A stretch of DNA of 64,000 nucleotides from Craspedostauros australis (taxonomy: Eukaryota; Bacillariophyta; Bacillariophyceae; Mastogloiales; Achnanthaceae): positions 124,001 to 188,000 of the forward strand of contig JAMXDE010000041.1 of the NCBI GenBank assembly GCA_026770025.1, read 5' to 3'. The notes under the pieces are model-generated. The model had not been told where the DNA came from and searched no databases. It was given only the letters and a program-made list of their open reading frames with translations. Shown piece by piece: positions 1,278 through 59,305 of the stretch; position 1 is the first letter of the stretch; every line of letters begins with the position of its first letter. Made by a program: the position numbers and the translations under genes.

Positions 1278-3705
1278 CGCAATTCAATGGCCGTTCGATG
1301 TTGTTGGACAATCGGAACTGCTGAATCCGACCCAACGCGCTGCGGTAGATAGATAGATCGGTAGATGGATGGATGGATGGATCAATGGATGGCCAAGGTA
1401 AAGCAAGTCCCCGTGCTCTGAGGGAGGAGACGGCCCTGCAGTTCTGTGGCTTGGTCTGTGCGCGCCAATTGCAGCTGCAACGTGAACGGACACAGATACG
1501 GATCGAGTCTGAGGACAGCGACGCAGACAGACAGAGGGAGACAAGCAGAGAGGGAGAAGGAAGGTTCAAGATGGAAGGCATTCAGTCATGCGAGCATGCG
1601 TCCATTCATCTTGCTCTTCCTTTCTCTTGTTTCTCCTCTGTTGTTGCTGCTGTTGCCGCTCCTCTCTTGGCTCGTTTTTGTATCAGTTCGTATTGAACCA
1701 CTACCACACCACCGATGAGTATTATACGAGTGATGCTGCTTCACAGCAGAGCAGGGCAGGCCGCACGTTGGCTCGTGCTCGAAGTGCCCGGATCGGCTTT
1801 CTCTGTCTACCCCTCACAGTTGTGTCGTTTGGTCACTTGTTGTGATGATTGACACTTGTGTGGCACTCCAGCGCGGCAATCCAACGGATCAGGGACAATG
1901 TCGCTGGATGACCGGCCGCACCTCTCGTCCAATCTCTTCTTCTTGCGCGGGCTGCTTGGCTCTGTTCTTGTTCTCGCTTGTCTCGGAGCGGTTGGGTTGA
2001 TGCTTGATGACCTTTCCGACAATGCGATGCTGCAGCGTCCAATTCCAACAGTGTTTGTGATGATGTTGGCGACGGCGATGGTAAGTAATGACGATGTTCG
2101 CGGAGTGATGTCTTCTTGCTCGTGATTGTGGTCGTGACCAGGTTGGTTTGCGTGATGTTGGTGTTGGCGAAGTTTGCATCGGCGCAACGCGTTGTTCGTG
2201 GAACCACAGTTCCGAAGTTTCGCAGAAATTGAGATTCTTGGTTTGCGGTAAAAAAGACGCGGCCGTTGTGTCTTTCGTGTTGTCCAGTTTCGACACTCGT
2301 TCTGTGCACACTCTTTCTGCAATTGCTCTCCTCTTCTCGCCTCTCATTGGATTGGCAAGCATGCATCCACATACACACACACTCACGCACACTTTGTTTG
2401 GCTTCTTTCTCAGTTCTAATACAATGTTGTCCATGGTCAAACCAGCGATTCGGACTCCAAGGAAGAGCGCAAGTGGAGTAGCAGGAAATACGACCTAACG
2501 AAACAATACTCGGAACAGTTGCCGCCATTGTGTACGCACAATACAGAATACAACTAAGCACGACGACGCACAAGATACGAGTATAGTCGAACCACGTGCC
2601 TTTGATGGGTGTGATACAACAACAATGACAGCAACAGCAGCAGCAACAAAAGGACATTCCGCCTCTCGGATGATCGTGTCTCGTCTTCACGAAGGAACAT
2701 CGCTGACGATTGAACTTTGCGGAACGAGGAGAGTGAAGCGATGGCGAGAATTCGCCACAACAACAGGAACGGAAAAGCGATGCACGCAGAAACAGTCCAG
2801 CGCAGAAGATTCCATGTGTACGCGTTGTGTCCACCACAAGTCTTCGAGCGTTCTTTCTTGTTGGCAACAAAAATCCTGCTTCCAATGTCCAAGCGCATAA
2901 CTGTGTTACTCGTGGTTGATATTTTCAATTGACATTCCCGCATCCGTCGGCGATGTGTGAGTCATGTGTATCGCAGCCGATTGATTCCTGATTCAATCCA
3001 TGAACAAAACATAGTTCGTGAATAAACTCATTAGTCGGCGTTGTCGAATCGCACTTGCGGTGCGCGACTCATCGGACATGGAAGCGACAGCATGCGACAT
3101 GTTCCGCGCGACGCCACCAGCAAAGGTGACAACACATTTCTCATTCACTCGCTTGGCCGGAAGAGCGAATGCTGATAGTGAACTTCCTGATGCGGTAACA
3201 ATAATGTGGGCGACTCTTTGGCGCCGAAAAAGGAAGAGCAGCATTTTCCGTTCGACGAGTCCTTGAGGGCAGCGAATGAGAACGGCAGAAGTGAATGCAA
3301 CGTGTGAGCTGCGGATGATTGATTGATTGATTGATCCGATTCTGAGCCGAGTTGGGTGGAGTAACTGGCTGATTGAGCGAATGATCGGCTGATTGGTTGA
3401 CGGAATGTGTGAGGGTGTGAGGGTGCGAGTGTAATGTGAGTGTGTCCAGATGAGTGAATTCATTGTGTGGGTTCATCGTCTCGAGATTCGGCGATTCTTC
3501 TCTTGACATCCTTTCTGTGATGGCATTGTTCCTGTGCATGAGAACACTGCAACCACCAGTGAATGTGACATTCAAACCCGCAGTCTCCATGACCGTCGTC
3601 ACCATCATCGTGATTGTCATGACCATCATCTTCACCACAAAGTGACAGCGGAGATACGAACAAGGACGTGCGAATACTCCACAGTAGAATACTCTTGTTT
3701 CGCTC
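1278..3705. other. intergenic, no supported gene
   Basis: No ORF here shows a recognisable domain. All three minus-strand frames are unusually open around 1889-2322 because the plus strand is T/G-rich, which removes stop codons from the complement. A short hydrophobic plus-strand frame starting at 1898 ends at a good GTAAGT donor near 2081, but no convincing second exon follows. A GATG tetranucleotide microsatellite lies at about 1363-1385. Confidence 0.5.
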
Positions 3706-3708
3706 CAG

Positions 3709-3732
3709 GGAGTCATCGTAAAAGTTACAAAA
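3709..3732 (+). repeat. left terminal inverted repeat of Harbinger-like element
   Basis: 24 bp identical to the reverse complement of 9897-9920. The element boundary is placed so that the flanking CAG at 3706-3708 matches CAG at 9921-9923. Confidence 0.88.
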
Positions 3733-4639
3733 AACTATAATTTGCTTTTTTGCTGACATCACGGGTCCCATAACAAGTGCACAGAAGCGTTGAGGACACA
3801 ACGACCACTTCGACTAAATCAAAACGAATACAATCGACCCACCCGGCCAAACTACAACACAATCCGCCTCAACACCAACAATCTGCTCGAACATCAAGAA
3901 CAAGTGAGATGGCTACTTTGAATATTCCTCCTCAGAAGGTTCTAATTTGGCTCTATTTCTTTGATTCAACAATGCTGGCGCGCCGGTGTGGTGTGTTCCG
4001 TCCCCTACATCAAGTCGTGATCAACGACCAGTTGCCACACATCCCACCAATGAAAACTCACATGTCTTTCACAAGATGAAACTAATCCAAACAAGCTGAT
4101 GGAATATTTGACTCCTCTTGGTAGGTTTGCTCCTCTGACCATCGCTGCCATTGACAATCCTCGATTCGAGTGTCATTGCTTTTATCCCACTGCTCATCAT
4201 GACAAGCACATCAATGATGAGTGGTGTCAGTCTTTGCTGTTGTGATGCATCATGTGGCAATTGGATCAAATGTGGGTTCCTCAATCTGCATTCCATGTTG
4301 ATTCCCATGCCATTGATCTCCCTTTCCTCATTTGTGCATTGATACAATCCAGCTAACTGAGGTTGGCAGCCACAAAAGATCTCCATGATGCCATCCTGGC
4401 ACTGAAACAACGACCACAAACAAAAACATGCACCCAACATCATCATCGAGCGGATACATTCTGAAATTTGATCAAACAAAAGCCATCACAATCGTCATCA
4501 CACATCAACACAAGCATGCCATCTTGTTTCGACTCGGTCAATGTGAATGTTGGCACCTTGTGATCTTTGGCCAGTTCCTGATGACCATCTCTCTGAAAGT
4601 CAGAAATGGCAACCAGCCTTTTGCGCAGTCACAGTTTGG

Positions 4640-7612: not shown

Positions 7613-9590
7613 ATGCAACTCCAGAAGCTGTCACAAGCCTTGCAGAAGTTCCTGCAAACTGGCAAAGGTATGCATTGACTGAGAGCATCTGATGGTGGTT
7701 TGATGTTGGCTTTGTGTTGCTCACCACAACCACTCACATCCTCTTTGTGCTTTCAGGGTTTGGACTTGAGTTTCGTGCCAAGTGTGGCTGAGCATGCCAG
7801 AAAATTACAGCGATTTGCCAAAAGAACTTCAAGACACTCTCCGGTACCACCCATCAGGCCACAACAACAGCAATGACACGAATGACGAGGATTTTGAACC
7901 CAACAACAAAGATGAGGACGATGCCAGCTGTGACAATGAGGAGGAGCTTTCTAATTTGCCAACAGTTGTAAGCACACCACACTCCAACAGAGCCAGCAGT
8001 ACCAACGACATCAGCAACAGCACTGACAAGAGCTTCTCGTTTGCTGGCTCCAAATCGGACGGAGCTTCCGCGGATCAACTGTCACCCAACTTCATTGACG
8101 ACAATCTCATCCTTGCCACTCCACCATTCATCATGCCTCATCGTACCAAAGTGCCCAAAACCACGAAGTTTACACCAAACACCACACCAAAGAGCGCAAC
8201 GTCTAGCTGCAACAACAACAACAACAACATTGAAGAAGCAATGCGCAGCCTCAACATCAACCATGTGAAAGGAAACGAGGAAATTGTGACAACTTCGAGT
8301 GCCAAAATGGTCAAGCAAGGATCATTCCAAGAGAATGCGCTGGATCCAGTGTTGGGAGGCATTCTGATCCACAACCATCATGGAGTCCACATCTTCTTTG
8401 TGCTCGAACCGCTCGTCAACCCAGAATCTAGTCGCTTCTCCAGCAAGGATGACGGGTGGAGCATTAAATTGGCGTACAAGCTACCAGCAACTTATTACTC
8501 CGCAAGCAGCATCTACGGGCCATTCACGGATCGTCCTCAATTTTCCGTTGGCCTTCGTCAGGGACAAGAAGCGCTTCGCTCGATGGCACAATCGCAAGCC
8601 GATGAGAACGGTGAACCTGCAGTCACGCGCAGGGTAAGTGTTGACTTCCAGATGGACAACAACTTCTGGCATGCTGTGATGAAGATGCCGATGCCTGCAC
8701 AGTACCACATCATCTACAACGGTCTTGGGTCGTTCACCATCGCGGCGTTCTGTTTTGAGCTGCAGCAGAAGGCGGCGATTCCGCTTGGTCACACCATCTC
8801 ACGTACCATCGCGGGGATGGAGCCAAACAACACATTTGGTGGAGCACCGTTTGGAACTCCACAACGCAGCCACAACTGGTTTGCGCCCAGTGTCTTCTCT
8901 CCATCACCAGGAGCCCCAGCATTCTCAGGACACCATGGTGTCGCTGCCAACAGGCATGGATTCCTGCCTGCTGGGTTTGGCACACAGCCATTTGCAACCC
9001 CAACTCAGCCACATCAACAAGGGTTTGGTTGGGGACAGCAAGGAGCAGCAAGCCATTTTGGCAACATGCCAGGAGCTGCAAACTTCACGCTGCGCTCTAC
9101 TGGGCGCCACAAGAACGAGGAGGAGGCAGCACGCAGCCAAGCAGCAGAGGCTCGTGCACAACAGGAGGAGGACCGTCGTCGCCAGCCAGAGCAGGAAGCC
9201 CGAGCGCTCATTGAGCAGGCAAATGCTCGCACAAAATTGGCGCAACAGAGAGCTTCATCCGAGGCAGAAGCGCAGGTCTGTGCTGCGCAAGCTCACAATG
9301 CTCGTCTCATGGAGAAAATGAGAGCACTTGAGGAGGAGAAGGCCAAGTATGCTCGCATGGTGGAGCAGCAGCGCGCAGCAGCAACCAACATTGACAACAC
9401 CACCTTCTCAATCTCGGACATGCCACAAGCCCCCACTGCTGGGTTTGTCCATCGTCGCGAGAATGGCAATGTGCTGAGCCGAAACGATTCTGTACACCAA
9501 CGAATGGATGGTGTTCCAAGATCTGTCACAACAGGAGTTCATTCAGCTGCTGTCTCTGAGGATGGACTTGCATCAACAGTGCATGCATGA
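7613..9590 (+). CDS. transposon-borne ORF: acidic, FG/P-rich and coiled-coil protein
   Basis: Not recognised. The main exon is 7783-9590 and stays open for 602 codons. A small first exon (7613-7667, starting MQLQKLSQAL) joins in frame if a 115-nt intron is removed (GTATGC donor, GCCAAG acceptor), giving about 620 residues. An alternative TTTCAG acceptor at 7757 gives a stop, so the first exon is tentative. From N to C: an Asp/Asn/Ser-rich acidic stretch (to ~180), a compact region with many aromatic and beta-prone residues (about 205-355, containing VDFQMDNNFWHAVMKMP), a Gly/Phe/Pro-rich linker resembling FG repeats, then a long Glu/Ala/Gln/Arg coiled coil (about 460-540). Its position inside the Harbinger-like element suggests the accessory protein such elements often carry, but no Myb motif was seen. 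Confidence 0.55.
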
Positions 9591-9896
9591 GCCCCAACCA
9601 AGTTCATGTTGCAAGAGGATGCTCGCTCAACAACACACCAGGCAGTGAAAAGCGCACAATGGGCAACAAATGAGCACCAACCAAGACACACACACATCAA
9701 CAACAACACCCACAAACAAACAGAACCAAGTCAGTGCGCTACTAGAATAAGCCAACACCGATAGTAGCAACAGTAACGAACACAACAAACCTGACTTGCC
9801 ACAGTCGCGATCCGACCACCAAATGGATTGCCGTTGTCGATTTACTCGACTGTGACGAAACGTTGATAATTCGTGACCTAAATACAAACTATTTTA

Positions 9897-9920
9897 TTTT
9901 GTAACTTTTACGATGACTCC
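9897..9920 (-). repeat. right terminal inverted repeat of Harbinger-like element
   Basis: Reverse complement of the left terminal repeat, 24 of 24 matching, followed by the second CAG copy at 9921-9923. Confidence 0.88.
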
Positions 9921-11011
9921 CAGGGTACAATACCACAAGAGTTGCCACGGAACGAAATTATGGAGAGTACCATCGCAACCAGCAGGAGAGTGGTGGCACA
10001 ACAATTGATCCGCTCCACGAGATTATGGTTTGTCGGAAACGGGTTCGCTGTCGCCCATGGCCATTCTCGATCCTCTTGTCGCTGCAACCTCAAGGAACCC
10101 GAGGCGCTTCCTCTCTCTCTCTCTCTCTCTGCAGACAAGTGACTCCCGAGGGGTGACGATCTGGCACACGCACACATGCGCTCACACTCACACATCTACT
10201 CGTCTCCTCTTCCACCATACGCATCATTTAATGCTATACTCACCCGCGTGAGCGAATTGCGAACAGCAGAGTGACTCCTCGACACATGGTATCGAACACA
10301 GCAGGACAGAAGCAGAGCGAATCAAAGCAGGCCGAAGGGAGACAATGATGCTTCACGCGTACTCTTCTCTCCTCTTCTCTTGTCTGTTGGCGCTCTGGCC
10401 TCGATTGTCATGATCAATAATATCATGTTTCCGTTTCTGCTCCGCCAGTTCCCTTTGAGATTGGTGATACCACCGAGGGCGGCAATGATCGTGCCTGCAC
10501 ATGGCACCACTGACGCAATAAAGCACTGTCCTGACCTTGGCCGTGGATGACAGCGTCATTGGCGCCGCTACCGCACAGCGGGCGCTGAATAGAGTGAACG
10601 CAGGACGTGGAGAAGTTGGCGGAAACTCGTCGCTTTCTAAAAAGTAGAGTGGAGTACTGGTACGCGCACTGGCAGTGAAGATATCAAGCATTCCTATTAC
10701 ACTTGTGAACGCATGTGGAAGTCCCTTCCCTTTCATCCAGCTTCCGGTTCAACTCCTCTCCTTTGCACTCGCCCATGATACCGCAATACCATTGCCCCCT
10801 ATTCTCCCATGCGTTCACTCTTACTGTCATTGTCATTGGCGCTGTCGCTGTTGGTTATCGCTGCTGGTGATGTCGCTGGTCGCTGTCGCTGGTCGCTGTC
10901 GCTGGTCGCTGTCGCTGGTCGTTGTCGCTGGTGGTTGCTGCAACTTTCCTTCTTCTCTTGCCCAATACCATACATACGCACGTGCGCCAGCGTTTCAACC
11001 TCAACAGCGAC
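9921..11011. other. intergenic, no supported gene
   Basis: No domain-bearing ORF. Contains a CT microsatellite at about 10112-10131 and a 13-bp minisatellite at 10871-10935. It holds the 3' side of the TPR-like gene. Confidence 0.5.
10871..10935. repeat. 13-bp tandem minisatellite
   Basis: About five copies of the 13-mer TGTCGCTGGTCGC in tandem, the last two with one or two substitutions. It lies 80 bp downstream of the stop codon of the minus-strand TPR-like gene, so it may be part of its 3' untranslated region. A 13-nt period is not codon-compatible, arguing against coding. Confidence 0.85.
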
Positions 11012-14520: not shown

Positions 14521-14524
14521 ATAC

Positions 14525-14559
14525 GAGCCCCTCGAGTGAGTCGACCAACACTTTGAAAT
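14525..14559 (+). repeat. left terminal inverted repeat (35 bp perfect)
   Basis: Matches the reverse complement of 20524-20558 at all 35 positions; weaker inverted similarity runs on to about 14685. Preceded by ATAC. Confidence 0.93.
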
Positions 14560-15023
14560 GGACATTCTAACTTTTCATCTGCGATATCCAAACCAAGCAC
14601 ATATTCGTAATACCTATAGTCTCTTTATACATAATTAACCGTTACATTTTTTGTTAGATCCTTATTTTAAGTTTTATGGAGTGATCTATGTGTGCATTGC
14701 AGTCGCGTTGATCCAACAGCACAAAACCCGTTGTTGTTGGCAGAAGGTTCTATCATGTTCTCATGTATTTATCGTGAGGTGATCAGTCACGGACTTGCTT
14801 CCGAAGGTGTCAGTCGTTTGGTACGCGTTAATTACACGTTAGCATGTGGCACCTGATTCCACATTCTGCTCGTCACAAAGCACATGACACAAAACACATC
14901 ACACAAAACACATCATCGCCATCATTTCGCAAATTTGTGCCATGCTTCGGCTCCATTCACAACTTGCCTCGCCAATGCCCTGCACACTCGCCCTTTCGCT
15001 CCATGCTAGTTCTCCTCCTCCTG

Positions 15024-15064
<41 letters not shown>

Positions 15065-15191
15065 TGTTGTTGTTGTTGTCAACGAATGGTCGACCATTCA
15101 TCGTTTGCTCTCCTTCCTCACTTCATCTCAACCTGTGCTGTTCATCACATCCAACCAGCTAACAACCATACTCAACACCAACAACTACATC

Positions 15192-18100
15192 ATGCCTATC
15201 TCGACCCCTACCAAGGCCCTCTCCAAGGATGCTAACCCCTCTGCCCGTAAGAAACCGCGTTCTGCTCGCCTTGCATCTGCTCCTCCTGCCGACTCCAAGG
15301 GAAACTTGCTCCCTACCGCGGAGCAACTGTTGCCTGACAAGCCATTCGCTGCGTTGAGGAAGCCAACCACCATCACGCGAGTGATCGATGTGAAGCCGAT
15401 GCTCGCAGCGGATGGCAGCCTCGTCCCGAACGGTACGCATGCGCACGCTCGCGTGCTGCATGTGTTCGTTCACATCCTCGATGACAACGGAGGCGTCTTC
15501 GACGACTCCAACGTCAACGTGCGATCCGAGGGACGAGGTGTCGGCGATGGAACAGTGGTGAGCGTTGTCGTGAACGCGCCACCCCTGCCTGCTGCAGCTG
15601 ATGTTGCTCCGCCTGTCGAGCCTACCCCGCCAGCGAGGCTTCCCCGGCGCTGCAATACTGTTGTTGCTGGGGGCTACGCAGATGCCTCTGGCGACAGCGA
15701 CAGCACCTACGACGACAACGGCAAGGAGGTACGGGCGCGTGCCAGCAGGAACAGGAGAGGAGGTCAGTTCGGGTACAATCTGGAAGAGGCGGGAAACTGG
15801 AGGCGCGATGCCATCGTTCGTGCGATGGCAGCTCTTGGATCTAACCTAGATCCAAAACTGTTGCAGCTGATGCCGAAAAAAGGGTTCGTCCTCACAGGCA
15901 GCCACGATCGGACCATCTGGAGCTCTGTGAAACAGATGTGGAATGTTGTCTCATCCGCGCTTTGGACAGTGCTGCTGCCAGAAGAGGACGTGCCAACTCG
16001 TCAGATGGAACAGGTGGTTGCATTCGTGCGCGGCAACGTGGATCTTCCGCCAATCATGTTGGCGCCCAATCTGTACACCCTGGGCTTGCTCGGAGAAACT
16101 CCATCATCCCGCGCGGTGAGAGCTGCTTTGGCCATGTCTGCGCCACATGCACTGTGTACTTCCATCCTCGAAAAGCGCGCGCAAGAACTGTCCGACGAAC
16201 AGAAGACTCGTATGCTTCCCAAACGCGACATCATCACACATAGCCAGGTATGCACCTTGCGTCGCTACTACGACATGTTGAGCCATGGCGAAACCATCTC
16301 ACCGCCAGTTCTTCAGTATCGCGTGCGTGCTTGCGACCTGTCTGGCGTGGTGTCCTTCCTCATGACAACAACAACATACAAGGCAGGGTTAAGTCACAAG
16401 GTACAGTATGGTGGAATTGAATTTGAGAATGTCCCGGTGTTCGATCGTGGCAGCACCACCATCCAAGAATTATTCGACATGTACTCTTCCACTACCAATA
16501 CTCCGGTTGGGATGCCTGCTTTCACCACCATGACCCACCTCCTCACACGCAAAAGCAAGATCAAGACAGGCCTCTCTTCCTTCGAAAGCTACTTCTGGAT
16601 GGCAACGGGGAAACTCAAACAGGCAATTTCGCGCCTAGTAGACCTACTGAAGGCTAAGTATGGAGCAGATGGGGAGGAGCAAAATGATGCCGCTGTGGAT
16701 GCCAATGACGAGTATCAGCACCAGAACAATGAGCCTGATGATGTCATCACACAGCATGTGCGCACAGCCGATTCTCTCTTGCATGCACTCGAACTGCTTG
16801 TTGTGTTCCTCAAATGGGAGTTCACCGCCTCTCACATGCAGCTTCAGTGTGACGATCCAATGCACTCGGCCACGTTCGCTCTCACCACCAAAAAGGAGAA
16901 GAAGAAGGCATCAACCACATCGACCAATCAACGCAAAGCACGAACCAACAAACACAAGCGCAAGAAGAACACCGCTGTCACAAATGACACTTCTCCCACC
17001 ACTGCAAGCGAACAACCACGTAAAGTATGCAACCGTTGTGGAGCAGCAATGCGATTTGTGAATGATCGTTTTGTTCCTTTTGTCAAAATGCTTAAGGACA
17101 ACGAACTCGCAGAACACAATGACGAATTGCAATCAATGCTTGCAGCGGCCCCGGGATTCGCCAACGAAATTGTTAACTACATGGCTCACAAAGTGCGTGC
17201 CAAAGTGCAATTCGGACAAATCGCCTTTTATCAATCCCAGCTCAATGAAAAGCCTGAAAGAGCCTATGTGGTACTCGACCATAAGCAAAAAATTCTACCG
17301 ACAGGCCAAGGCGAAGCCCAACAAGAATATTGGGGGAAGAAGGGGATGTCACTGCTTGGGGCAATGGTCATCACGTGTCGCAACGACATTTTTACTTATC
17401 GGTTCATCGACATTGTGGTCGAGGGAAGACCGACGCAAGACACACTTCAAGTTGGTGGACTGCTGGAGATCGTGCAAAAAAAGGTCAAAGACATTCACCC
17501 ATCCGTGACTGAAATCATCCTACAGAGCGATAACGCGTGTTGCTTTGCCAGTCACGAGCACATCGCGCTCATCACATCCAAACTCAACAAGAACCTTGTG
17601 ACACGAAACGCCGCCAAAATCATCGCCTGGATCTACACGGAGGCCCAAACTGGTAAGAGCATGCTGGACACCCACTTCGCGTACATCACCCGTGTACTGC
17701 GAAAATACGTGCAAAGTGGCAAGGACATCAAGACCCCTTTCCAAGTCTTCCTCGCGCTCCAAGCCGGTAACATCGCAGGTACGACAACGGTACTTGTCAA
17801 CGCGGCGCTCCTGGCAGGCAACATCACCACGCTGCCTGGTGCACCAAAACGACGATTCCGCGCAAGTGGGCAACAGGTACGTATGACTCACGAGGTGAAG
17901 TACGACGATGACCAGGCGCGGTTGGTGGCTGCATCTGGAATCACGGAAGATGTTGTGGTGAAGAGCACCGAATGGGGAGGGTGGATCATCAACGAGTTGG
18001 GTGTCATCGCGGACAAAACATTCACGTCCGACAAGCTGCCGATCACGTCCGAATCATTCAGGAAGACGGACAAGACGCGAAAACTCGGGCGCACAGCGGC

Positions 18101-18707
18101 AGAGAGCAAGGGGCTTGCGTTCGGCAAGGCCATCGCAGACGGACAACAACATCTACCATCCGATCACACCACAGCGCTACAAGACCAGACCGCAGAAACC
18201 GAACACCCACCACTCGCAGTACAAGGCTGGGCCAGCAAAACAGCACGGACCAATGCCAAACTACCGGACTACATTGCGGACAAATTGAAGGGCATCTGTG
18301 AAGTGTCCGCGAAGGACCCGAAAAACAGACCGTCCGAACACGAAGCACACGAGCAATTGATGGACAGTGAAAAAGCCAAAACTGACTGGTACGTACAACT
18401 GCACGCTAACCCGATGCGTGTGAAAGCTTCACTGTCAGCAGCGTACAACGCCAAACAACGCAAGGACAAGAAGCAAGCTGCTCTCAAGGCGGAAACCAAC
18501 ACCAACACCAACCCAACAAGCACAGCAACAGCATCTGTAATTGTGGCAACCTCCAATGCACCAGCTGCAACAGAGGAGGAACGAATTGAAGAGGAGTTGC
18601 AGAAAGAGGAAGAGGAATTGGACCATCAGATGTGGTGTGATGCTCACACCATGAAGGCGAACACAGAAAGTGAGGCTGTGTTGGATGATGAGACGGAAAT
18701 TTTGTGA
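15192..18707 (+). CDS. putative DDE/D transposase, about 1171 aa, intact
   Basis: Start chosen at 15192 (MPISTPTKAL). The open frame reaches back to 14844 only through a (TAG)n/(TTG)n microsatellite that would encode about 24 consecutive Val. From N to C: a basic Lys/Arg/Ser segment; a conserved helical region (about 215-520, with TIWSSVKQMWNVV); an Asp/Asn-rich gap; a helix-then-Cys segment leading into a Lys-rich stretch and CNRCG at about residue 613; and a putative RNase-H-fold core. The core has VVLDHKQK (D about 696), WGKKGMSLLGAM, IILQSDNACCF (D about 780) and EAQTGKSMLDTHFAYI (E817 or D826 as third acid), followed by RKYVQSGKDIKTP. The C-terminus is Lys/Glu-rich. This order (LD..K, FGKKG-like, SDNA, GGK..D, GHD-like) fits a transposase; expression in the host is not shown. 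It is the only long gene in the element. Confidence 0.75.
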   Translation: MPISTPTKALSKDANPSARKKPRSARLASAPPADSKGNLLPTAEQLLPDKPFAALRKPTTITRVIDVKPMLAADGSLVPNGTHAHARVLHVFVHILDDNGGVFDDSNVNVRSEGRGVGDGTVVSVVVNAPPLPAAADVAPPVEPTPPARLPRRCNTVVAGGYADASGDSDSTYDDNGKEVRARASRNRRGGQFGYNLEEAGNWRRDAIVRAMAALGSNLDPKLLQLMPKKGFVLTGSHDRTIWSSVKQMWNVVSSALWTVLLPEEDVPTRQMEQVVAFVRGNVDLPPIMLAPNLYTLGLLGETPSSRAVRAALAMSAPHALCTSILEKRAQELSDEQKTRMLPKRDIITHSQVCTLRRYYDMLSHGETISPPVLQYRVRACDLSGVVSFLMTTTTYKAGLSHKVQYGGIEFENVPVFDRGSTTIQELFDMYSSTTNTPVGMPAFTTMTHLLTRKSKIKTGLSSFESYFWMATGKLKQAISRLVDLLKAKYGADGEEQNDAAVDANDEYQHQNNEPDDVITQHVRTADSLLHALELLVVFLKWEFTASHMQLQCDDPMHSATFALTTKKEKKKASTTSTNQRKARTNKHKRKKNTAVTNDTSPTTASEQPRKVCNRCGAAMRFVNDRFVPFVKMLKDNELAEHNDELQSMLAAAPGFANEIVNYMAHKVRAKVQFGQIAFYQSQLNEKPERAYVVLDHKQKILPTGQGEAQQEYWGKKGMSLLGAMVITCRNDIFTYRFIDIVVEGRPTQDTLQVGGLLEIVQKKVKDIHPSVTEIILQSDNACCFASHEHIALITSKLNKNLVTRNAAKIIAWIYTEAQTGKSMLDTHFAYITRVLRKYVQSGKDIKTPFQVFLALQAGNIAGTTTVLVNAALLAGNITTLPGAPKRRFRASGQQVRMTHEVKYDDDQARLVAASGITEDVVVKSTEWGGWIINELGVIADKTFTSDKLPITSESFRKTDKTRKLGRTAAESKGLAFGKAIADGQQHLPSDHTTALQDQTAETEHPPLAVQGWASKTARTNAKLPDYIADKLKGICEVSAKDPKNRPSEHEAHEQLMDSEKAKTDWYVQLHANPMRVKASLSAAYNAKQRKDKKQAALKAETNTNTNPTSTATASVIVATSNAPAATEEERIEEELQKEEEELDHQMWCDAHTMKANTESEAVLDDETEIL

Positions 18708-20397
18708 TGGCTGTGCGTCACCGCGATAACACTAGTTGTGGAGTTTTGTGGGGGCAGACCATGCTACTAAAACGAGTCTAGAGGCCATCCAAAAAGCACA
18801 TCCAATATCTGCTTGTCATGCTATATCTCAACAACACATTGTCTACAATTAAATCTAAACAGTGCATTCATACACCTGACTAGTGTTTATACAGAATATC
18901 GAAGTTAAATTGACAAAGAAATTATTTTTAGTGTCATGTTGGTCCATCACACAGTTGTGTGGTGGATTCACAAAATTCTCGACCAAGCAATGTTGCCCTC
19001 CAATCAGCACCCATGATCATCATCATCATCCTGGTATTTTGATAAACTGCGCACCACAATCGCTCTGTATACCCCCCATCTACCCACTCCATGAAGGATA
19101 CAACGTTTTGGCCACATTGCATGCCCCAAAGTGTCCATACACTGAAAAAGAGTGATTCCAAAAAACGATTTTCAAGCCGGATGCGGTATGGATACGGATC
19201 CATACCTCATGCACATGACCCTTTCAGCCCCTCCACGTGCCCCTCGTGCATTCCCACACTCCCTGGTGACATGATGATGCATCCAGAGGGGGATGGGCAT
19301 CGATGGTCTTGATGGTACACCTCCATTTGGTGATGCCATCTCTTTTCGTGGCACCCCACCAAAACATGACCTGTCTGTACTCATTCGAGGCCACAGCCTC
19401 TTCCAGACAATATCTGCGGCGCGAACTTCGCGACGTGCATCTTCCGTTGGTGCCGCACGCATCTTGCATGGGCGACTTGGCGATTGGGTGGCTTGATGAT
19501 GCTGCCTGTCACAGCCAAAGCCACACCATGGGAACCCCCGCGATACACCGCCAAAACTCTTGCCCTCCACTGTTTCCTCTGCGCGGACACCTTCTCGGTC
19601 GTCCCCGAACCTCAAACTTCGTGTGAATCTTGGTCTTGGCCTCCTGGAGCCATCCTGCCCATCCATAGGCGTTGGGGTGGGCTGTGGATGGAGTACACCG
19701 GCCATATGCAACGAGGCAATCTGGCGCGAAATTGTGACGTTTGATCTGGGGCCTGCGACGGCCCCAAATCAAGCGCTCTCGCGGCCCCCTCTCGTCCACC
19801 CACCAACGGCTGCATCGCGGTGACGGCGATGTGCTTGGATTTGTCATTGGACCGCTGGTTGGTGCGGCGCAGTGATTGCCGTTGGACAGCCATTGTGGCG
19901 TTTTTTGGTGTTCCGCCATTGTCATGTTGTTGTTTTTTGGAGTCTGGCACTCTCAACCAGTCGGACATACTGGGGGATAAGGTAATTGCAAACACCTAAC
20001 CAAAATGCACGAAAGAAGCATGACACAAAACACTTCCGGAGTACCAATGCAACTCGACCATTCCGTCACGACGAAACGTCGCTGATGCTGCTTCACATCG
20101 TGCTGTGATTGGTGGCTCATGACGCAGCAGCCAGTCTAGTGACGTAGATGACGGATCAGACAGGCACAGGGTAGAATGGATCCAAACGCGCACTCGCCGC
20201 TTCTCCCAAAACTCTACAACTAGCGCTATCGTGGACGGGGTGTTGGATGGTCTGATCGGAACACCTCAAAAAGAGACTAAACAATTCAAAATGGGAACAA
20301 CGTCGCTGAAACGAAGAACAGCAAAGGGTTAAATTGGATCGATGTAGTCGTAGGCGAAAGGCTGAAACCCGAGAGAGATCGAAAATTGCTCATATCC
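18708..20397. other. non-transposase part of the 6.0-kb transposon
   Basis: About 1.7 kb between the transposase stop and the right subterminal repeat. Minus-strand frames at 19509-19925 (starting MTMAEHQKTP) and 19172-19711 overlap and could be exons of a second small gene, but no domain or consistent splice path was found. Mostly it looks like non-coding cargo. Confidence 0.4.
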
Positions 20398-20523
20398 ATC
20401 GGTCCGTAAAACTTAAAATAGGATCTAACTCAAAAATGTAATGGTTAATTATTTGTATTAGACCTACAGGGATTACGAATATGTGCTTGGTTTGGACAAC
20501 GGAGACAAAAATCCAAGAGGTCT

Positions 20524-20558
20524 ATTTCAAAGTGTTGGTCGACTCACTCGAGGGGCTC
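20524..20558 (-). repeat. right terminal inverted repeat (35 bp perfect)
   Basis: Inverse of the left terminal repeat; inward inverted similarity extends to about 20398. Followed by ATAC at 20559-20562. Confidence 0.93.
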
Positions 20559-20562
20559 ATAC

Positions 20563-46542: not shown

Positions 46543-48945
46543 ATGCCGCAAGACAGCAACAGCAAGAGCACTCCCACCAGCACGAACCCTTCTCAGGGCA
46601 TCCGCCCAAACAGCGGAGGAGGACGGCACAGCAACGCCATGCCAGTGCGCAGTATTGTTCCTCCCAACTCTAAATCACGGTTCCCCAACCGCATTGAGAG
46701 GCCTGGACACCCCATACCTCGCAACCCGCTACGACCTGGAGTACCAACAGAGCAAAATGAAACGACTCTCTCAGGGGCATCATCCAACAACGGGAGCACC
46801 CAGCGAGAAGTAGAAGACCTCGGGTCAACAACGTCATCTATAACGGGGGAGGCAGAGATGGCGGAGACGGAAGATGCGTGCTCTATCAACTGCGATGTGA
46901 ATGCCACATCGTCATCGTCGTCGTCATCATCATCATCATCATCATCATTGTCATCAAACGGGGCAGGCTCAGGATCGCAGCCGGCATCAATCCAAGAGGA
47001 CACGACCAATGGGCCTCAACTTGATGCCGAACGTCTCAATAATCCAGAGGTGGCGCAGACCGACACGCACACCGACACGCAGAGCGACACGCAGCCCGAG
47101 ACAAAGGCGAGGTGCAAGCGTCAGCATTGGATGCTGTTCGTATTTCTGTTCATGATTGCGGTGATCGTTGTTATCGTGGCGTTGCTGTTGATGTCGAAGG
47201 TCATCGACAGAACGACAACCAAAACCACCAAATCAAACGCGCCACGGACAAGCTTGGCACCGACCATGTCGTTGGATCCTTCGCCCTTGCCCTCACCCCC
47301 ACCTTCAACGATAGTCTCTCCATCAGGTACGCAGGCCAAATCGGTGGTACCATCGGTTCCTCCATCCAAATCGAAGGCGCCATCGCATGCACCATCAAAT
47401 ACACCAGTCTCATCCAATTCACTGTCCACATTTCCATCGAGCTTACCATCCGCCTCGGCATCCATCCAGCCGAGCGCGATGCTTTCCATGCCTGCCTCAC
47501 CAACGGCCGATTCGCTCTTCCTACTGTACACCAACATCCTGACACCCATCTTGGAGGCAGAGCCAAGCTTCACCAATCGATCTGTATTCGAGGATCCAAC
47601 CAGCCCTGAATCTCAGACGATGGAGTGGCTGTCGAAGAACCACCAGATCTCAAGCTTGAGCCAGCAGACTTTCAGCACCGGCAGACTTCGAAACTTTGAC
47701 CATGGCATAGCAAGCTCTCGCAGCGAAACCACCCTCATCCTACATGCATCGGATCTCAACGAGCTCCTCGAGAAGTATGTGCTCGTGTTGCTGTACTTCA
47801 AGATGGGAAATAGCGAGCAATGGGCACCCCTCTACAATTACCTCGACCCCGATTCTCATCACTGCCAATGGCAAAATCCCAGCGAGTCCAAAGGCATCTT
47901 TTGCGATGACGATCTCGAAGTGATCGGATTTCAGCTGAGCGATCGTTTCATCAGCGGGACCATACCAGATGAATTATACCTCCTCACCAACCTGTGGAAT
48001 TTGGATCTTGGCGGATGTACGAACATTCGTGGGACAATCTCGACCTACATTGGTCGATTGTCGGATTTGTGGGATGTGAGGCTCGACGGGACCTCGATGG
48101 AAGGAAGCATTCCGAGCGAGATTGGGATGTTGACCCACATGTGGCGCTGGGCATCCTACGACTCCCATGTTAATGGGAGCCTGCCAACCGAGCTTGGGAA
48201 CTTGATCGACCTTGAGGTCATCGATGTTAAAGGGTCAGCCATGACGGGGCCTCTCCCAGTCGAGCTTGGGAATCTGGTCAACCTGGAGAGCGTCTACATG
48301 TTTAACAACCTGTTGACAGGTTCTCTCCCAACGGAGATAGGGTTGATGACAAGTCTCCGAGTATTCTACATCGAGGACTGTCAATTCCATGGACAGATTC
48401 CATCTGAGATTGGCCAACTGGTCGACTTGGAGCAGTTGTACCTGCAGAACAACAAACAGCTCAATGGCACTCTCCCATCTCAAATATCCAATCTCAGAAA
48501 CTTGAAAGACTTCTCCATTGGTGGTACAAGTATCGTCGGCAATCTTGACCCAATCCTCTGCCTTGCAACCAACACGCTAGACCGCATCTGGGCCGACTGC
48601 TCTACACCACCCGGGGTTAGCATTCTATCATCAGTCGCATGCTCGTGCTGCAGACACTGTTGCTACACCGACGAGGATTCGGGAGATGCCGAGTGCGACA
48701 GACAGACGAACCCAGCGTATACCATGTGCTACAACAACGAATGCACGTCATGCGGCAATGGGCGGTTTGTTTCGTCATGCGACGAGTGCATCGATCGCAA
48801 CGTTTCGTCGTTGGGGACACCGCCACAGTGGATCGACTTTGATGAAATCACGAACATGGAGATATGTTCTGGATCATGCGCACTCGAGGGGACAACCGGG
48901 ATGTGCAAGATGAGGAACTTCACAGATGCCCCTCTTGGAGCGTAG
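46543..48945 (+). CDS. LRR membrane protein, intact, single exon
   Basis: 800 residues, no intron. Residues 1-193 are low complexity and presumably cytoplasmic, with a 14-Ser run encoded by (TCA/TCG)n. Residues about 195-217 are one strong transmembrane segment (MLFVFLFMIAVIVVIVALLL). A Ser/Pro/Thr-rich stalk follows (about 225-325), so the topology is type II with the LRRs outside or in a lumen. Repeats of about 24 residues occupy about 465-680, with the plant-type pattern LP.ELGNL..LE and G.IPSEIG.L..L. Before them is a LRRNT-like block (HHCQWQNPSESKGIFCDD). The end is Cys-rich (CSCCRHCCYTDED ... CTSCGNG). Likely a surface or adhesion/recognition protein; no kinase domain, so it cannot signal as a plant receptor kinase does. 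The LRR gene at 55442 has the same layout. Confidence 0.88.
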   Translation: MPQDSNSKSTPTSTNPSQGIRPNSGGGRHSNAMPVRSIVPPNSKSRFPNRIERPGHPIPRNPLRPGVPTEQNETTLSGASSNNGSTQREVEDLGSTTSSITGEAEMAETEDACSINCDVNATSSSSSSSSSSSSSLSSNGAGSGSQPASIQEDTTNGPQLDAERLNNPEVAQTDTHTDTQSDTQPETKARCKRQHWMLFVFLFMIAVIVVIVALLLMSKVIDRTTTKTTKSNAPRTSLAPTMSLDPSPLPSPPPSTIVSPSGTQAKSVVPSVPPSKSKAPSHAPSNTPVSSNSLSTFPSSLPSASASIQPSAMLSMPASPTADSLFLLYTNILTPILEAEPSFTNRSVFEDPTSPESQTMEWLSKNHQISSLSQQTFSTGRLRNFDHGIASSRSETTLILHASDLNELLEKYVLVLLYFKMGNSEQWAPLYNYLDPDSHHCQWQNPSESKGIFCDDDLEVIGFQLSDRFISGTIPDELYLLTNLWNLDLGGCTNIRGTISTYIGRLSDLWDVRLDGTSMEGSIPSEIGMLTHMWRWASYDSHVNGSLPTELGNLIDLEVIDVKGSAMTGPLPVELGNLVNLESVYMFNNLLTGSLPTEIGLMTSLRVFYIEDCQFHGQIPSEIGQLVDLEQLYLQNNKQLNGTLPSQISNLRNLKDFSIGGTSIVGNLDPILCLATNTLDRIWADCSTPPGVSILSSVACSCCRHCCYTDEDSGDAECDRQTNPAYTMCYNNECTSCGNGRFVSSCDECIDRNVSSLGTPPQWIDFDEITNMEICSGSCALEGTTGMCKMRNFTDAPLGA

Positions 48946-49354: not shown

Positions 49355-49873
49355 ATGGTCAAAGAGCAGGCTATCGCTGGGCGGGAGCAGCACAAGAACA
49401 CGAAGACGACCGCAACTGAGGCGAACATGGGACAGCGACAGAAGCGTTTTGTGATTGGAGCAGTTGTGTTGGCCATCCTTGCCATCGTTATTGGCCTCGT
49501 GCTGGGCCTGGGCAACGATGGCAACACCAACGCGTTGGTTCGGATCCAATCGCCCGCAACAGCCGCGCCCACATCAACGGTGCCAGCATCTGCCGTGCCA
49601 ACATCGGCCCCATCCGTATCCATATCGCCGAGCAACGCCCCCGCCTGATCTGCGGAAGCTTTGTTAATCTCGGATGTCATTCGAACAGCATCGCCGCAAA
49701 CCTCTGTGGATCAGTTGGATGCGGAGAACACGCCACAAGCCAAAGCGCTTGAATGACTCATCGAAGACCAACGGGGCGTCGGAGGCAACGGCATCAACGG
49801 TGAAGGTTGGCCACAGGATGACTTGATCGTGAGCTGCGCTTTGCCTGTTTTCCGCCACAGCACAGGCAAAGAC
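49355..49873 (+). pseudogene. LRR membrane-protein relic, paralogue of 55442 gene
   Basis: The segment matches residues about 470-620 of the product of the 55442 gene: Gln/Lys-rich lead-in, QRQKRFVIGAVVLAI transmembrane segment, Pro/Thr/Ser stalk with SPSNAPA, then QTSVDQLDAENTPQAKALE, LIEDQR and GEGWPQDDL. Two in-frame TGA stops (about 49646 and 49753) sit exactly where the paralogue has TGG for Trp. The match ends near 49873 at RHSTGKD, before the repeats. A relic of a duplicated gene, without the LRR part. The sequence between it and the transposon at 50282 shows no gene. Confidence 0.85.
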
Positions 49874-50300: not shown

Positions 50301-50474
50301 CGGGACTGAGGAGTCCACTTACGGCTAAGTGGATTCCTCAGTCCACTTACCATTTTTGTTGTTTCGTAAGTGGACTCCTCAGTCCAGTTACCGTAAGTGG
50401 ACTGAGGAGTCCACTTACGACCACAAAAAAAGTAGTCGAATTTCGCTCATCTGAGAAAAGACTACTTCGACCAC
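50301..50474 (+). repeat. left palindrome array and inner inverted repeat
   Basis: A partial copy (from 50301) and three full 26-bp near-palindromes at 50325-50350, 50366-50391 and 50393-50418, with loop CCTC or GAGG and scattered substitutions. The last continues into a 56-bp unique arm containing AGTAGTCGAATTTCGCTC, which pairs with the right end. Confidence 0.9.
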
Positions 50475-51887
50475 CCCACCCTGTCACATTTTTTGGATTC
50501 TTCGTGTTGTTGCGTGTAAACTTGTGCACACAGCGATTTTGCATTGAGACGCACCTCCTCCGTTCTTTTTTACGCAATAACAGCAATCAACACTGACTCT
50601 ACTCTGCATTATATTGTCTTTCTCTACTGTTATGATACTGTTATGCTACTGTTATGCTACAGTCATCCTTGTGAGCCTCTTGTGCGTGGAATACGTTGGT
50701 GTACATAATTCGTATTGCATATCATCGTTTCTGCTTCCTTCCATGCAGACCGTGAGTTGTGACCTCTATATCTCTGCTGTGGGTCCTGGCTTCGGCGGCT
50801 GCCTTGTGCGCAGCTTGTATTGCTGCTTCCAGATTCAGGACAGGCACCCTTGAGCTAATTATTGTGGCTGTGTTTGTTTGATGTGCCTTGGCAGTGGTGG
50901 CTTCACCGTCGGCGTTGTCATTGCTTTCGTTGCTCATCTCTCTTGCTATCTCTGTTACTGCATTTGTAGCTGTGGTGGTTGTCTCATCTGTGTTTGCGCT
51001 GATAAGGCGTTCATTGTGGTGGCTTCTCTCATTGATGCTGGGCCTTCACCTTCTCTACTCATTCGACAGGCTCCTTGTGCACAATTCGATGACATAAGTT
51101 GTGAACAATGATTGCGTCCGCTCCTTTTGCGATGTTTCTTAATGCCATGGTTAGGGCAATGCCACATGTCATGAGCCACTCCTGTTTGTCAGCTTTGATG
51201 TATCAGCAAGCATACAAGTTGCATCCTGGACAGATCCAGTGTCTACACACTGAACAGGCAACACAGGTTCCCCTCACGTCTGGACAGTACCTTGCTGCAT
51301 GCTCACCCTGCCGCAATCATTTGGTCATTTTTATCTCCTCCTTGGGATCCATCGTGGATAGGCTGGCAAGCATTCCTTTTTATTTTGACGGTCCTCGGGG
51401 CATCCCCGTGGCTGCATCTCGCCATCTTCGACGGCTGACCCGCCTGCTGGAATGATATCAGTGTTGTGGGTCGCTGTCTCCGTGCCTCCCTTTTGTTTCT
51501 TGCCCTTTCTTTCGTCTGCAGCCATGACTGCGAGCAACTTGCGCAACCAAGCAATGATTCATCCCATCAACTTGTTCAGACTTCACTCATGATTTACTCT
51601 GCTGGGATACTGTTCGATGGTGCCAGTGTGGCCTGCTTCAATTTCATGATCGGAGTGTGCCTCTGTTGCGTAGTGAATCAATCAGTGCAGTGCCACAAAC
51701 ATGGTTTGTAGCTGTCAACCGACTGCTATGCAATGGATTGTTGCAATGAGTGGGGACGCTTTGTGCTGCTGGATGAGCTTTGTTGTTATGTCAGACCCAC
51801 CATTCAGGCATTTCCATACAGCACAGTTCAGGGGAGGAACGTCTTCACTGGAGGTACTGGGAAAGCAAGAATGTTGTGGTGGGTTTG

Positions 51888-54499: not shown

Positions 54500-54767
54500 G
54501 ATGAAACAAGCTTCTTGAAGCTGGTGGGAACCTAAACAGTGTTATATTAGAGGAACATTTGATGATGAAAGACGTTGATGGTACTGAAGGGGACGACAAT
54601 TACGATAAAAAGCTTGTGGTTACACACAAAGTTGTTGTGTTACCGTCTACAAGTCTATTGAAGTCCAAGGATGCGGTTGACAACACGTAAATCAACGCGA
54701 CAAAATACGAAGCCAGCATCACAACCAGAACGCAACCGAGAGAAACAGGGAATTTGGAGGAGGTGGA

Positions 54768-54926
54768 GTGGTCAAAGTAGTCTTTTCTCAGATGAGCGAA
54801 ATTCGACTACTTTTTTTGTGGTCGTAAGTGGACTCCTCAGTCCACTTACGGTAACTGGATTGAGGAGTCCACTTACGAAGCCCAAAAATGCAAGGGGGTC
54901 GTAAGTGGACTCACCAGTCCACTTAC
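54768..54926 (-). repeat. right palindrome array and inner inverted repeat
   Basis: Three 26-bp near-palindromes at 54824-54849, 54851-54876 and 54901-54926. The segment 54768-54849 is the inverse of 50393-50474 with one mismatch in 82. Confidence 0.9.
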
Positions 54927-55441: not shown

Positions 55442-58400
55442 ATGTCGTCCCTGCCTCCCAATGCCCGCGGCGAGAATGATGATAGCATCGTCTTCGTGAA
55501 CGAAAGTGGTGGTAGTCACAGCTATGGCAATAACGATGGCAATGAGAACGGCAACGGCAACAATGGTAGCAACAATGGCAACAATGGCAACAATGGCAAT
55601 GGCAATGGCAACGATAATGACAATGACAGCGATGAGAACCATTCGACAACATCCAACATGGACGAAGACGAGGTCTTCCCTCCTACTGATCTGGAGCCCA
55701 CCGAATCGCAGCTCATGAGGGACTTGTCGCAACCCGTCTTGCGGATGCGCAGCAACCAGATCATGGCCATCATCGAGGCCGCAGACACCGACGAATCGGG
55801 CGAACTGCGTCGCAGCGGCTCCTTGAACAGCGATGCTGCGGGCGGAGATGGAAATGCAGAAACCCACAGCGACGATGAGCGTCCGCAGTTCGTCGACCAT
55901 GACGACGATGAGCCAAAGCGCGCTGATAGCGACGCACTAAAACCTGCTTCGTCCGGCGCGCTCGCGGTCGCACTCACGGCTGCTGTTGGTGGCACGAATA
56001 ACGAGGGCACATCGCCGACGGCGAAGGCGAGATCCGTTGGAGCCTTTGCTGTGCCGTTTGCATCGCCAGCCTCCAGCAGCAGCAACCGCTCGGATCGCAA
56101 TGTTGCGATGAACAAGAAGGACGCCTTCACGCTTGCGATGAATCCCTCTCAATTCAGTTCGAACGCCGCGAGACCGCGCTCTACCAACAAAAATGCCCGC
56201 AATAGCGGCCGATCGGTCGGAGCGCACCGTGTGACGAACAACAGTGCGGATACTGGCAGTCTCACGAAGAGCGTTGCCGTCCATCGAGATAGCAGCAGCA
56301 CCGCAGCAAGTGCCGACCGAGCCGCGAAGGACGCCTTGGCCGTGGATCAAGCCCGCACCTCCGTGGTCGGAGCTGTGCCGTCCATGTCTCTGAAGGGTGA
56401 TGCGAAGGAGAAGAAGGAATCCGGTGACCGCAAGTCGTCGGTCTCGATCTCTTCTTACTCGAAGACGATCATGGATGATTCGGAGGCCTTCAGCAGCGCC
56501 GGCATGGGCATTCCGCAGGATGATGATGTCAGCAACGATGCCAGCAATGCCACCAACCTCTTCGGTAGACCGGCGACGCCGGCCATCAGATCGCGCAGTG
56601 CTGGGCTGCGTGACGCCTTGTCTACCAACCCCGCTATCGCAGAACACCTCGATGGGCATATGCAGGAATTGCGCGACAGTATGGCGAATCAAGAGCAGTT
56701 CGTCGATCTGGAAGGCATGGCCATGGGCGACGACAATACAACGGCCGTCGAAGCTGTTGCGGTCAACGACAGCGAGCTCCTCCAAATCGCGAGAGATGAG
56801 GTCATGGAGAATGCTGTCGAAGCGCAAGTCGTCACGCAGCAAGAGCAGGAAAAGACCATCGAACTCGCTGCAGCTCAGCGAGGCAAGCAGCAGCAACGCA
56901 AGTACGCGATTGTACTTGCGTTGGCGCTCGTTGCCGTCATCGCCCTTGCGATTGGTCTTTCAGTTGGACTGGAAGGCAGTGGCAGTGGCAGTGCATTGAT
57001 TGCGATCAATATAACGATGGTTCCAACCGAATCGCCCACAACGGCCACACCAACGCAACTGCCGTCTGCATCACCAAGCAACGCCCCCACTCTCGCTCCC
57101 ACCTGGTCTGCGGAAGCATCGCAGCTCTTGGACTTCATTCGATCATCGTCGCCTCAAACAACTGTGGATCAGTTGGATGTGGAGAACACGCCACAAGCCA
57201 AAGCGTTTGATTGGCTCATCGAGGACCAAAAGACCCGCAGGGCCTTCAATGCCGACGGCAAAGGCTGGACGCAGGGTGACTTGGCTGTGCGGTATGCGTT
57301 GGCCGTGTTTTACTACAGCACAGGCGGAGACGGTTGGTTCGTCAAGGAAGACTGGATGGCGCTTGGCATGCACCATTGCGAGTGGGGCGGATCGATCACC
57401 TGCGGCAACAGCCCGACGATACAGCCGTTGCAGAAGATATCCATGTCCGGCAACAACCTGGCCGGCACCCTTCCAGATGAGCTGGCCATGCTGTCACTAC
57501 TCGGTAAGCGCGGTCATGCTGTTGTGGATGATGCCTATTTCTCAATGCGCCCTTTAACTTTGGCGCAAACGCAGCAGTCTCCCCCATGCCTTTTGTTATA
57601 CATCTTCGCGTCTAACACTCTTGCATCCAAACCCATTCTTCTCTGCTTGTCCTGGTTGTGCTGGCACAAATTCTATACAAACCTCCCGCGACACGTCTAC
57701 CATCACACAAACCAGACACCCTCACCCTGTCGGGAAACTCACTGTCAGGATCCATACCAACATCGATGGCAACGATTCAGAGCATGGCGTACATGGTTCT
57801 GTCCAACAACATGCTCGAAGGTCCACTTTTCCCCAACGACGAGTGGGAACCAGTGATGAAGAACTGGCAGAACACGCTGCTGGAGTTTGATCTGTCCCAG
57901 AACACCTTCACGGGAGACTTCCCAGCTGGTTTAAGGCATCTCAAGTCGGTCGTCAACATCCAACTGCAGAACAATGCACTGAATGGGACCATCGCAACGG
58001 AGATCGGATTGATGGAGAGTTTGGGTACGTGGTATTGTGTACACGTGTGTATCTGTATACGTGTGTTTGTATACATTTGTATGTTTGCGTGTTGAGTGTT
58101 GCGCGCATTCCATGTGTTGGGTGTGGCAGATGCAGTATGTCCGTCGCAACAGACCAACGGTTTCAAATGGACGATTGCTCACCACCTTCCATTCCCTTTC
58201 CATTCCAATTGTCCCTCCTCACCAATACACCCCCGCGCCACGTACCCGCACCAACACGCCATCCACAGAGGAAATCGATCTGAGCCGCAGCTCCTTCAGC
58301 GAGAATGCCACCATCCCATCAGAAATCGGCATGCTTGATTCGTTGCAAAAGTTCATCATGATCTCATCCAACATAGGCGGTACAATCCCAACGGAGCTTG

Positions 58401-58766
58401 GATTGCTCAAAGATCTCCAACTGCTCAAGATCAACCGCAACAAGAGGATCGAGGGTATGATCCCTCCACACATTGGCAACATGACCAGTCTGGAGACGCT
58501 GTCTCTCGGTTCCAACAAGCTGGTTGGCCCCATCCCAGAAGAGATCGGGCAGTTGATCAACCTCGAGGAGATAGAATTCGACAACAACCGTCTTACATCC
58601 TGGCCAGAGTCCCTGTTCGAGAACCTCACAAAGCTTCGCATCTTGAACCTGCGACGCAATCAGATCCGGAGCTCGCTTCCGCCATCAATCGGCAATCTCA
58701 CCGACTTGCAGGTGTTCAGCTTCGAAACCAACCCAATTTCAGGCTCATTGCCATCTGAAATCGGGT
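55442..58766 (+). CDS. LRR membrane protein, interrupted by Copia insertion
   Basis: Exons: 55442-57503, 57716-58024 and 58269 to about 58766; introns 57504-57715 and 58025-58268 (GTAAGC/GTACGT donors, AACCAG/TCCACAG acceptors, all phase 1, each interrupting LRR coding). Residues 1-485 are Asn/Gly/Asp/Ser-rich and presumably cytoplasmic. About 487-510 is a transmembrane segment (YAIVLALALVAVIALAIGL), then a Pro/Thr/Ser stalk, an LRRNT-like block (HHCEWGGSITCG) and plant-type repeats (GNNLAGTLPDELAML, IPSEIGML, IPPHIGNMTSLE, IPEEIGQLINLE). The repeats stop in the middle of GSLPSEIGL at about 58766. Beyond that the frame reads unrelated sequence to a stop at 59140, and the Copia Gag frame starts at 59667. 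The promoter and the first two thirds are intact, so a truncated product could be made; the Cys-rich end seen in the 46543 gene is missing. Confidence 0.85.
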
Positions 58767-59305
58767 TGAGTTGGGACAGACTAGCTCCGGGACTGACTCG
58801 GGACTTGACTGTCCATTCCGCGTACACGGTACTCGGTACCCAAGACCGATACTGTGATGAAAGGCTACCACACACACGATGTGTAGTTGAACTGCAATCC
58901 TTGCGTTGCTCGCCCTCCAGCTCATGCACCCCTGCCACCTATCCACCTCGTCACCCTGCCGAACATGCATCTGTCTTGAAGCATATCCATGTGAATGGAT
59001 CAGTTACTGCTCTATGGGTGATGATACTGGAAGACTGTATGCGTGCAGGATCACCACGGCATGTTGCTGCGCAACAAAGAACGGCTGAAGTACGACAGCA
59101 TGAACCCCACCTTTTTACTCGATCGTCCTATCAATGGTAAGCTTAACACATAAAACAAGCAATCAGAAACAATCTTCACAGCTTACTCTCAAGTTTACTA
59201 CAGTTACACCATCGTCTGATACAGCTTTGCTCTCAACATCAAACGGCGTCAAAACCGGTTGAAGGGCAGATCATCCTCCTAACAACGTGCAAAAGACACG
59301 GAACA
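58767..59305 (+). repeat. candidate 5' LTR
   Basis: Inferred, not matched: the left limit is the point where LRR homology ends and TGAGTTGGG begins; the right limit is a CA just before a tRNA-primer-like TGGTAGCTGC. TG...CA ends and a length near 540 bp suit an LTR. Without the 3' copy either border may be off by several bases. Confidence 0.5.

Follow-up and report, generated by a model that had tools for sequence, protein, structure and literature searches.

A 6,034-bp DNA transposon of a large young family, Sola-like in anatomy, in the diatom Craspedostauros australis

We analyzed a 64,000-nucleotide stretch of the genome of the diatom Craspedostauros australis (assembly GCA_026770025.1, contig JAMXDE010000041.1, positions 124,001 to 188,000, forward strand), referred to here as the window. 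It carries a complete DNA transposon of 6,034 bp at positions 14525-20558, with the termini GAG..CTC. Alignment of the two ends revealed terminal inverted repeats (TIRs) that are perfect over exactly 35 bp, at 14525-14559 on the forward strand and 20524-20558 on the reverse strand. Beyond them the inverted likeness is imperfect (80% identity when 130 bp are compared, 78% for the first 160 bp, 60% for 250 bp) and defines subterminal arms at 14560-14684 and 20399-20523 (both forward strand), the left arm being part of the inverted pair I1 and the right arm pairing with the left end. The flanking sequence reads ATAC on both sides (14521-14524 and 20559-20562), i.e., a 4-bp target duplication. Between the arms lie a single gene, which encodes a transposase, and, on its 3' side, a long non-coding part.

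The transposase gene occupies 15192-18707 on the forward strand, a frame of 1,171 codons with no internal stop. When divergent copies of the element were compared, mismatches fell mainly on codon third positions within this frame, whereas ahead of the frame and beyond its end, from 18708, this bias was absent and single-base insertions or deletions (indels) were present. The frame remains open further upstream, giving an open reading frame (ORF) of 1,287 residues from 14844; because the third-position bias does not become clear until about 15275, we take 15192 as the likely start. A second gene in the 3' stretch (18708-20398, forward strand) was ruled out by the lack of codon-phase bias and by the single-base indels between copies. 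Antisense frames of 150-330 residues opposite the transposase were regarded, by position only, as by-products of the transposase frame.

In a protein alignment of 29 rows (five being second fetches of the same copy), a cysteine pair in the motif CNRCG, C613 and C616 (17028-17042, forward strand, as are all codons given here), was retained in every row. Three acidic residues that may form a catalytic triad lie downstream, i.e., D696 in VVLDHK (17277-17279; 29/29 rows), D780 in QSDNACC (17529-17531; D in 25 rows and N in four) and D826 in GKSMLD (17667-17669; 29/29 rows). A candidate alternative for the third acid, E817 (17640-17642), is as conserved as D826. We favor D826 because of the helix-like stretch LDTHFAYITRVLRKYV, on comparison with integrases; D696, D780 and D826 make the most likely catalytic triad. 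A first-pass annotation of the window, made by a model from the letters and a list of ORFs, had described the perfect 35-bp ends, a further 160 bp or so of inverted similarity, the ATAC duplications, the uninterrupted 1,171-residue ORF, the same three acidic motifs and the cysteine pair ahead of the core, and all of these were found as described, apart from the added candidate E817. Its span of 14521-20562 had taken in both target duplications, which do not belong to the element proper, and was otherwise accurate.

The window element is one of many. In the assembly searched for copies (74,831,031 bases in 90 contigs), its 22-bp end GAGCCCCTCGAGTGAGTCGACC occurred 79 + 76 times at up to two mismatches, as against none for the reversed control, so that the inverted ends cannot be due to chance. 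A second end type, GAGCCCGATCAGTGAGTCGACC, occurred 86 + 81 times, again with none for the reversed control; a few sites could match both patterns. Pairing used the first 100 ends listed for each type, i.e., 200 of the 322 counted, and accepted inward pairs of less than 20 kb. Among the ends listed there were 40 + 37 = 77 such pairs for the two types, spaced by 5.9-6.2 kb in 32 + 28 cases and by more in 8 + 9, while 20 + 26 ends (46 of the 200) had no partner. None of the 77 pairs was shorter than 5.9 kb, although short derivatives with diverged ends would escape this count.

Searches with the protein gave a matching picture, the counts being lower bounds. The whole transposase scored at 39 places or more (551 candidates), nearly at full length and with at least 84% identity, and 28 of 39 were free of stops. 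Its core scored at 150 places or more (358 candidates) with at least 86% identity; 113 of 150 matches lay in open frames that were 1,150 residues or longer and the remaining 37 did not, one of the 113 (at C11:1586123) being flagged with an internal TGA. Of 20 copies that we fetched whole, 13 had an uninterrupted full-length frame and seven did not.

Flanks were read at 42 insertions, i.e., the window element, the 20 whole copies, 20 more as 60-bp end pairs and one nested insertion. These were picked for window-type ends rather than at random, and 36 of the 40 pairs of that end type are among them. The target duplication is 4 bp long and has the form N-TA-N: the two flanks were identical at 39 of the 42 insertions, and a central TA was present on both sides at all 42. 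The 39 perfect duplications comprised ATAT (eight), TTAT (five), ATAG, ATAA and CTAT (four each), TTAG and ATAC (three each), CTAG and GTAA (two each), and TTAA, GTAG, TTAC and GTAT (one each). No clear base preference was seen outside the four target bases at these 42 insertions. Two of the three exceptions, L026 and L027 (contig C6, 1182200-1196504), lie about 2.3 kb from each other in inverted orientation; as we read the sequence, their four flanks would pair as ATAG/ATAG and ATAT/ATAT if the intervening stretch had been inverted by exchange between the copies. The third is L021 (GTAT/CTAG). At a further locus, L066 (contig C44, near 388568), the sequence on the left side is TCGGGCTC-ATAT, the end of another copy followed by its target, as if this element had gone into the target duplication left by that copy.

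An empty site was provided by the nested insertion, L037, in which a GATCAG-type copy of 6,057 bp lies within the right arm of another copy. Its junctions read ..TTACGA-ATAT-GAGCCC .. GGGCTC-ATAT-GTGCTTGG.., while the uninterrupted counterpart in the right arm of the window element, from 20471, reads ..TTACGAATATGTGCTTGG.., with the target ATAT at 20479-20482 (forward strand). The comparison therefore fixes both the 4-bp duplication and the ends of the element. The assembly contained no empty allele of the window insertion, whose joined flanks matched solely the window's own two flanks. The first-pass annotation had proposed a search of the genome for further copies with the same ends and for empty sites; the former yielded many near-full-length relatives, and the latter succeeded through this nested insertion and its uninterrupted relative, not at the window insertion. 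The annotation had named an empty site at odds with the proposed ends as grounds for refutation, and the proposal withstood this check.

The window element has moved recently and is part of a large young family. Apart from one gap it is identical to copy L012 throughout the 6,034 aligned bases; it differs from copy L009, whose frame is broken, at one base with two gaps, and the three have different target duplications (ATAC in the window, ATAA at L012 and TTAA at L009). The coding sequence is under purifying selection, with ratios of nonsynonymous to synonymous divergence (dN/dS) of 0.23-0.40 in ten comparisons among nine intact frames. In nine of these ten comparisons the synonymous distance over the first 400 columns exceeded that over the core (0.47 versus 0.11 for the window copy and L018), which suggests that subfamilies may have exchanged sequence. 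Divergence of the ends correlated with that of all ten other regions (r = 0.36-0.88; Mantel p = 0.0005-0.0025) in a test on 16 of 22 copies, six near-identical ones having been dropped at 2%. With every region correlated, no co-evolution with the ends that would be specific to an N-terminal domain can be claimed.

Taken together, the perfect ends, the target duplications, the end counts set against their controls, the empty site, the near-identical copies, the long frames, the dN/dS ratios and the invariant D696 and D826 lead us to conclude that this is very probably a DDE/D-type DNA transposon that is autonomous, has been active recently and is moved, presumably, by its own transposase. Inverted ends (35 bp) and target duplications of fixed length (a perfect 4 bp at 39 of 42 insertions), as expected of DDE/D transposons, are both present. 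The proposal in the first-pass annotation of a complete and probably autonomous DNA transposon is thereby strongly supported, through the copy number, the identical copies at different sites, the 4-bp duplications, the nested insertion with its empty site and the purifying selection. By analogy with other such elements, the 1,171-residue transposase would recognize and pair the inverted ends, and an RNase-H-like acid triad, probably D696, D780 and D826, would cut next to GAG, presumably releasing the element from the donor site. The ends would then be joined into N-TA-N across a 4-bp stagger centered on TA, and repair of the stagger by the host would leave the 4-bp N-TA-N duplication.

Several observations weigh against this conclusion. 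Neither movement nor excision was observed. In Pfam, NCBIfam, PHROGs and PDB sequences the transposase matched no transposase model and no solved structure credibly; the searches gave just a few rows from unrelated families (E = 0.08 to 7). Two single-sequence structure predictions reached mean predicted local distance difference test (pLDDT) values of 39.8 and 38.5, too poor for the fold to be judged; in the second, strands and helices follow each other much as in an RNase-H core as far as the second acid, albeit at too low a predicted confidence. When this second model was compared with the folds of the PDB, no match reached E ≤ 0.001. Given so poor a model we attach no weight to its top rows (acetyltransferases, a phosphohistidine phosphatase and gelsolin domains), nor to a viral terminase nuclease domain, of RNase-H-like fold, among the 50 rows listed (E = 0.23). 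Finally, D780 is replaced by N in four of the 29 rows (L017, L019, L021 and L037), and three of these copies (L019, L021 and the L037 insert) have full-length frames. The D780 codon is preceded by C, which creates a CpG step, and D780N is a transition expected at CpG; single-copy C>T/G>A changes were commoner at CpG (53 per 714 CpG bases) than elsewhere (77 per 2,375).

Two other accounts of how the family spreads have to be considered. Cut-and-paste families usually leave deleted copies, and with 60 of the 77 listed pairs spaced at 5.9-6.2 kb, no shorter ones, and long frames in most scored copies, movement might instead be replicative, the element being copied out and pasted in. A family that is simply young, or one in which the long arms are required, predicts the same picture, and the pairing left 46 listed ends without a partner and covered 200 ends, with 122 of the 322 unlisted; we regard the replicative route as unlikely. 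It is also conceivable that chance alone has kept the window copy intact and that another copy moves it in trans. The broken frame of L009, so close a relative, and the existence of D780N copies would fit this account, but purifying selection and the many long frames imply that coding capacity matters to the family, which makes mobilization in trans distinctly improbable.

If the mechanism is as proposed, recently active and apparently self-sufficient transposons are present in large number in this alga, their choice of target, any N-TA-N, is nearly unrestricted, and the element could serve as a tool for algal transgenesis or mutagenesis. It would also help to place transposases of the Sola-like kind, discussed below, in structural terms. 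Why none of the listed pairs is a deleted copy is a puzzle that bears on the mechanism of transposition and leaves room for the replicative route.

The window contains other repeats and genes. Inverted arms of 45 nucleotides at 3705-3749 and 9880-9924 (CCAGGGAGTCATCG..), about 6.2 kb apart, enclose a 598-residue ORF (7794-9590) that had no match in Pfam, and are possibly a second DNA transposon. Arms of 127 nucleotides at 50354-50480 and 54762-54888, which are 94% complementary, 4.3 kb apart and have hairpin-like ends, probably mark another inverted-repeat element. Leucine-rich-repeat protein genes lie at 46543-48945 and 58112-59140, and diverged direct copies of 136 nucleotides at 49636-49771 and 57094-57229. 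There were also 61 chlorophyll-binding matches; for one of these proteins the four best hits were LHCI chains of PDB entry 9vfj, followed in fifth place by a fucoxanthin chlorophyll a/c protein. Taken with the leucine-rich-repeat proteins, this points to an alga, probably a diatom, while an 18S pattern had 0 matches.

As to its relationships, the first-pass annotation had left the element in an unassigned superfamily and had seen in it a candidate for an undescribed system. The former holds for Pfam, NCBIfam, PHROGs and the PDB, the sequence libraries that were searched, to the exclusion of Repbase and Dfam. The latter is not demonstrated, because the anatomy agrees with published accounts of the Sola superfamily. 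A superfamily without a name, with a strict N-TA-N target of 4 bp and spreading almost only as full-length, self-sufficient copies, perhaps by replicative movement or because transposition requires the long arms and the non-coding 3' stretch of 1.7 kb, seems to us improbable. The strictness of the targets and the empty library searches speak for it, as do scans of viral, prokaryote, phage and plasmid collections, in which queries from the family, and others that included an animal-type transposase string, found no confirmed relative; these collections, however, contain hardly any eukaryotes. The animal-type string was 30% identical to the window core, but it was chosen with the window motif already in view and, as no more than a lead, carries no weight. 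No name for the family was found in the literature searched, a scope that excluded most subscription papers and Repbase Reports.

Among superfamilies that do have names, 4-bp duplications are described for Ginger1, AcademX and piggyBac (PMC10045372) and for Kolobok and piggyBac (PMC9587614), yet membership in any of these is very unlikely. Ginger shares the 4-bp duplications and fairly long TIRs, but its ends are TG..CA rather than GAG..CTC, and the transposase had no integrase match in Pfam. Kolobok has 5'-RR..YY-3' ends that fit the GA..TC found here, but Kolobok and piggyBac both target TTAA, which accounts for just one of the 39 perfect duplications; the C/DxxH step of Kolobok is absent, on our reading, between D780 and the third acid, and piggyBac ends are CC..GG. 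Academ elements are described as coding for a helicase or nuclease, whereas this protein had no Pfam match of any kind and the rest of the element lacks codon bias. With Tc1/mariner the element shares the TA at the center of every target read, but there the duplication is the 2-bp TA, whereas here the bases flanking TA are also duplicated and vary between insertions.

The closest published likeness is to Sola, and we regard the element as a new family of DDE/D transposon that is Sola-like in anatomy by published description. One account gives Sola a D-D-D transposase, 4-bp duplications, a size of mostly 2-9 kb and TIRs of 11-1,124 bp (PMC10741241); the element, with 4-bp duplications, 6,034 bp and 35-bp TIRs, falls within these bounds, and D696, D780 and D826 would supply the D-D-D set, although E817 is equally conserved and the choice of D826 is our inference. 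A Sola1 element of a choanoflagellate is described with 4-bp duplications and 32-bp ends (PMC6875170); Sola-1 and Sola-2 are on record from a brown alga (PMC12477816), and Sola from the diatom Cyclotella cryptica (PMC7466962). That the element is a new family within the Sola superfamily, as Sola1 or Sola2, is accordingly a plausible placement, which we rate at a little under an even chance, since the likeness is one of published anatomy, while the superfamily is defined by transposase homology. Sola and this family agree in the length of the duplication, in size and in the length of the TIRs, and probably in a D-D-D set. The targets agree in part: ATAT is among those used by Sola2-type elements of Polysphondylium, but AWWT, AAAT and ATTT are given for two Sola2-bearing amoebae (PMC3627910), as against the strict N-TA-N of this family.

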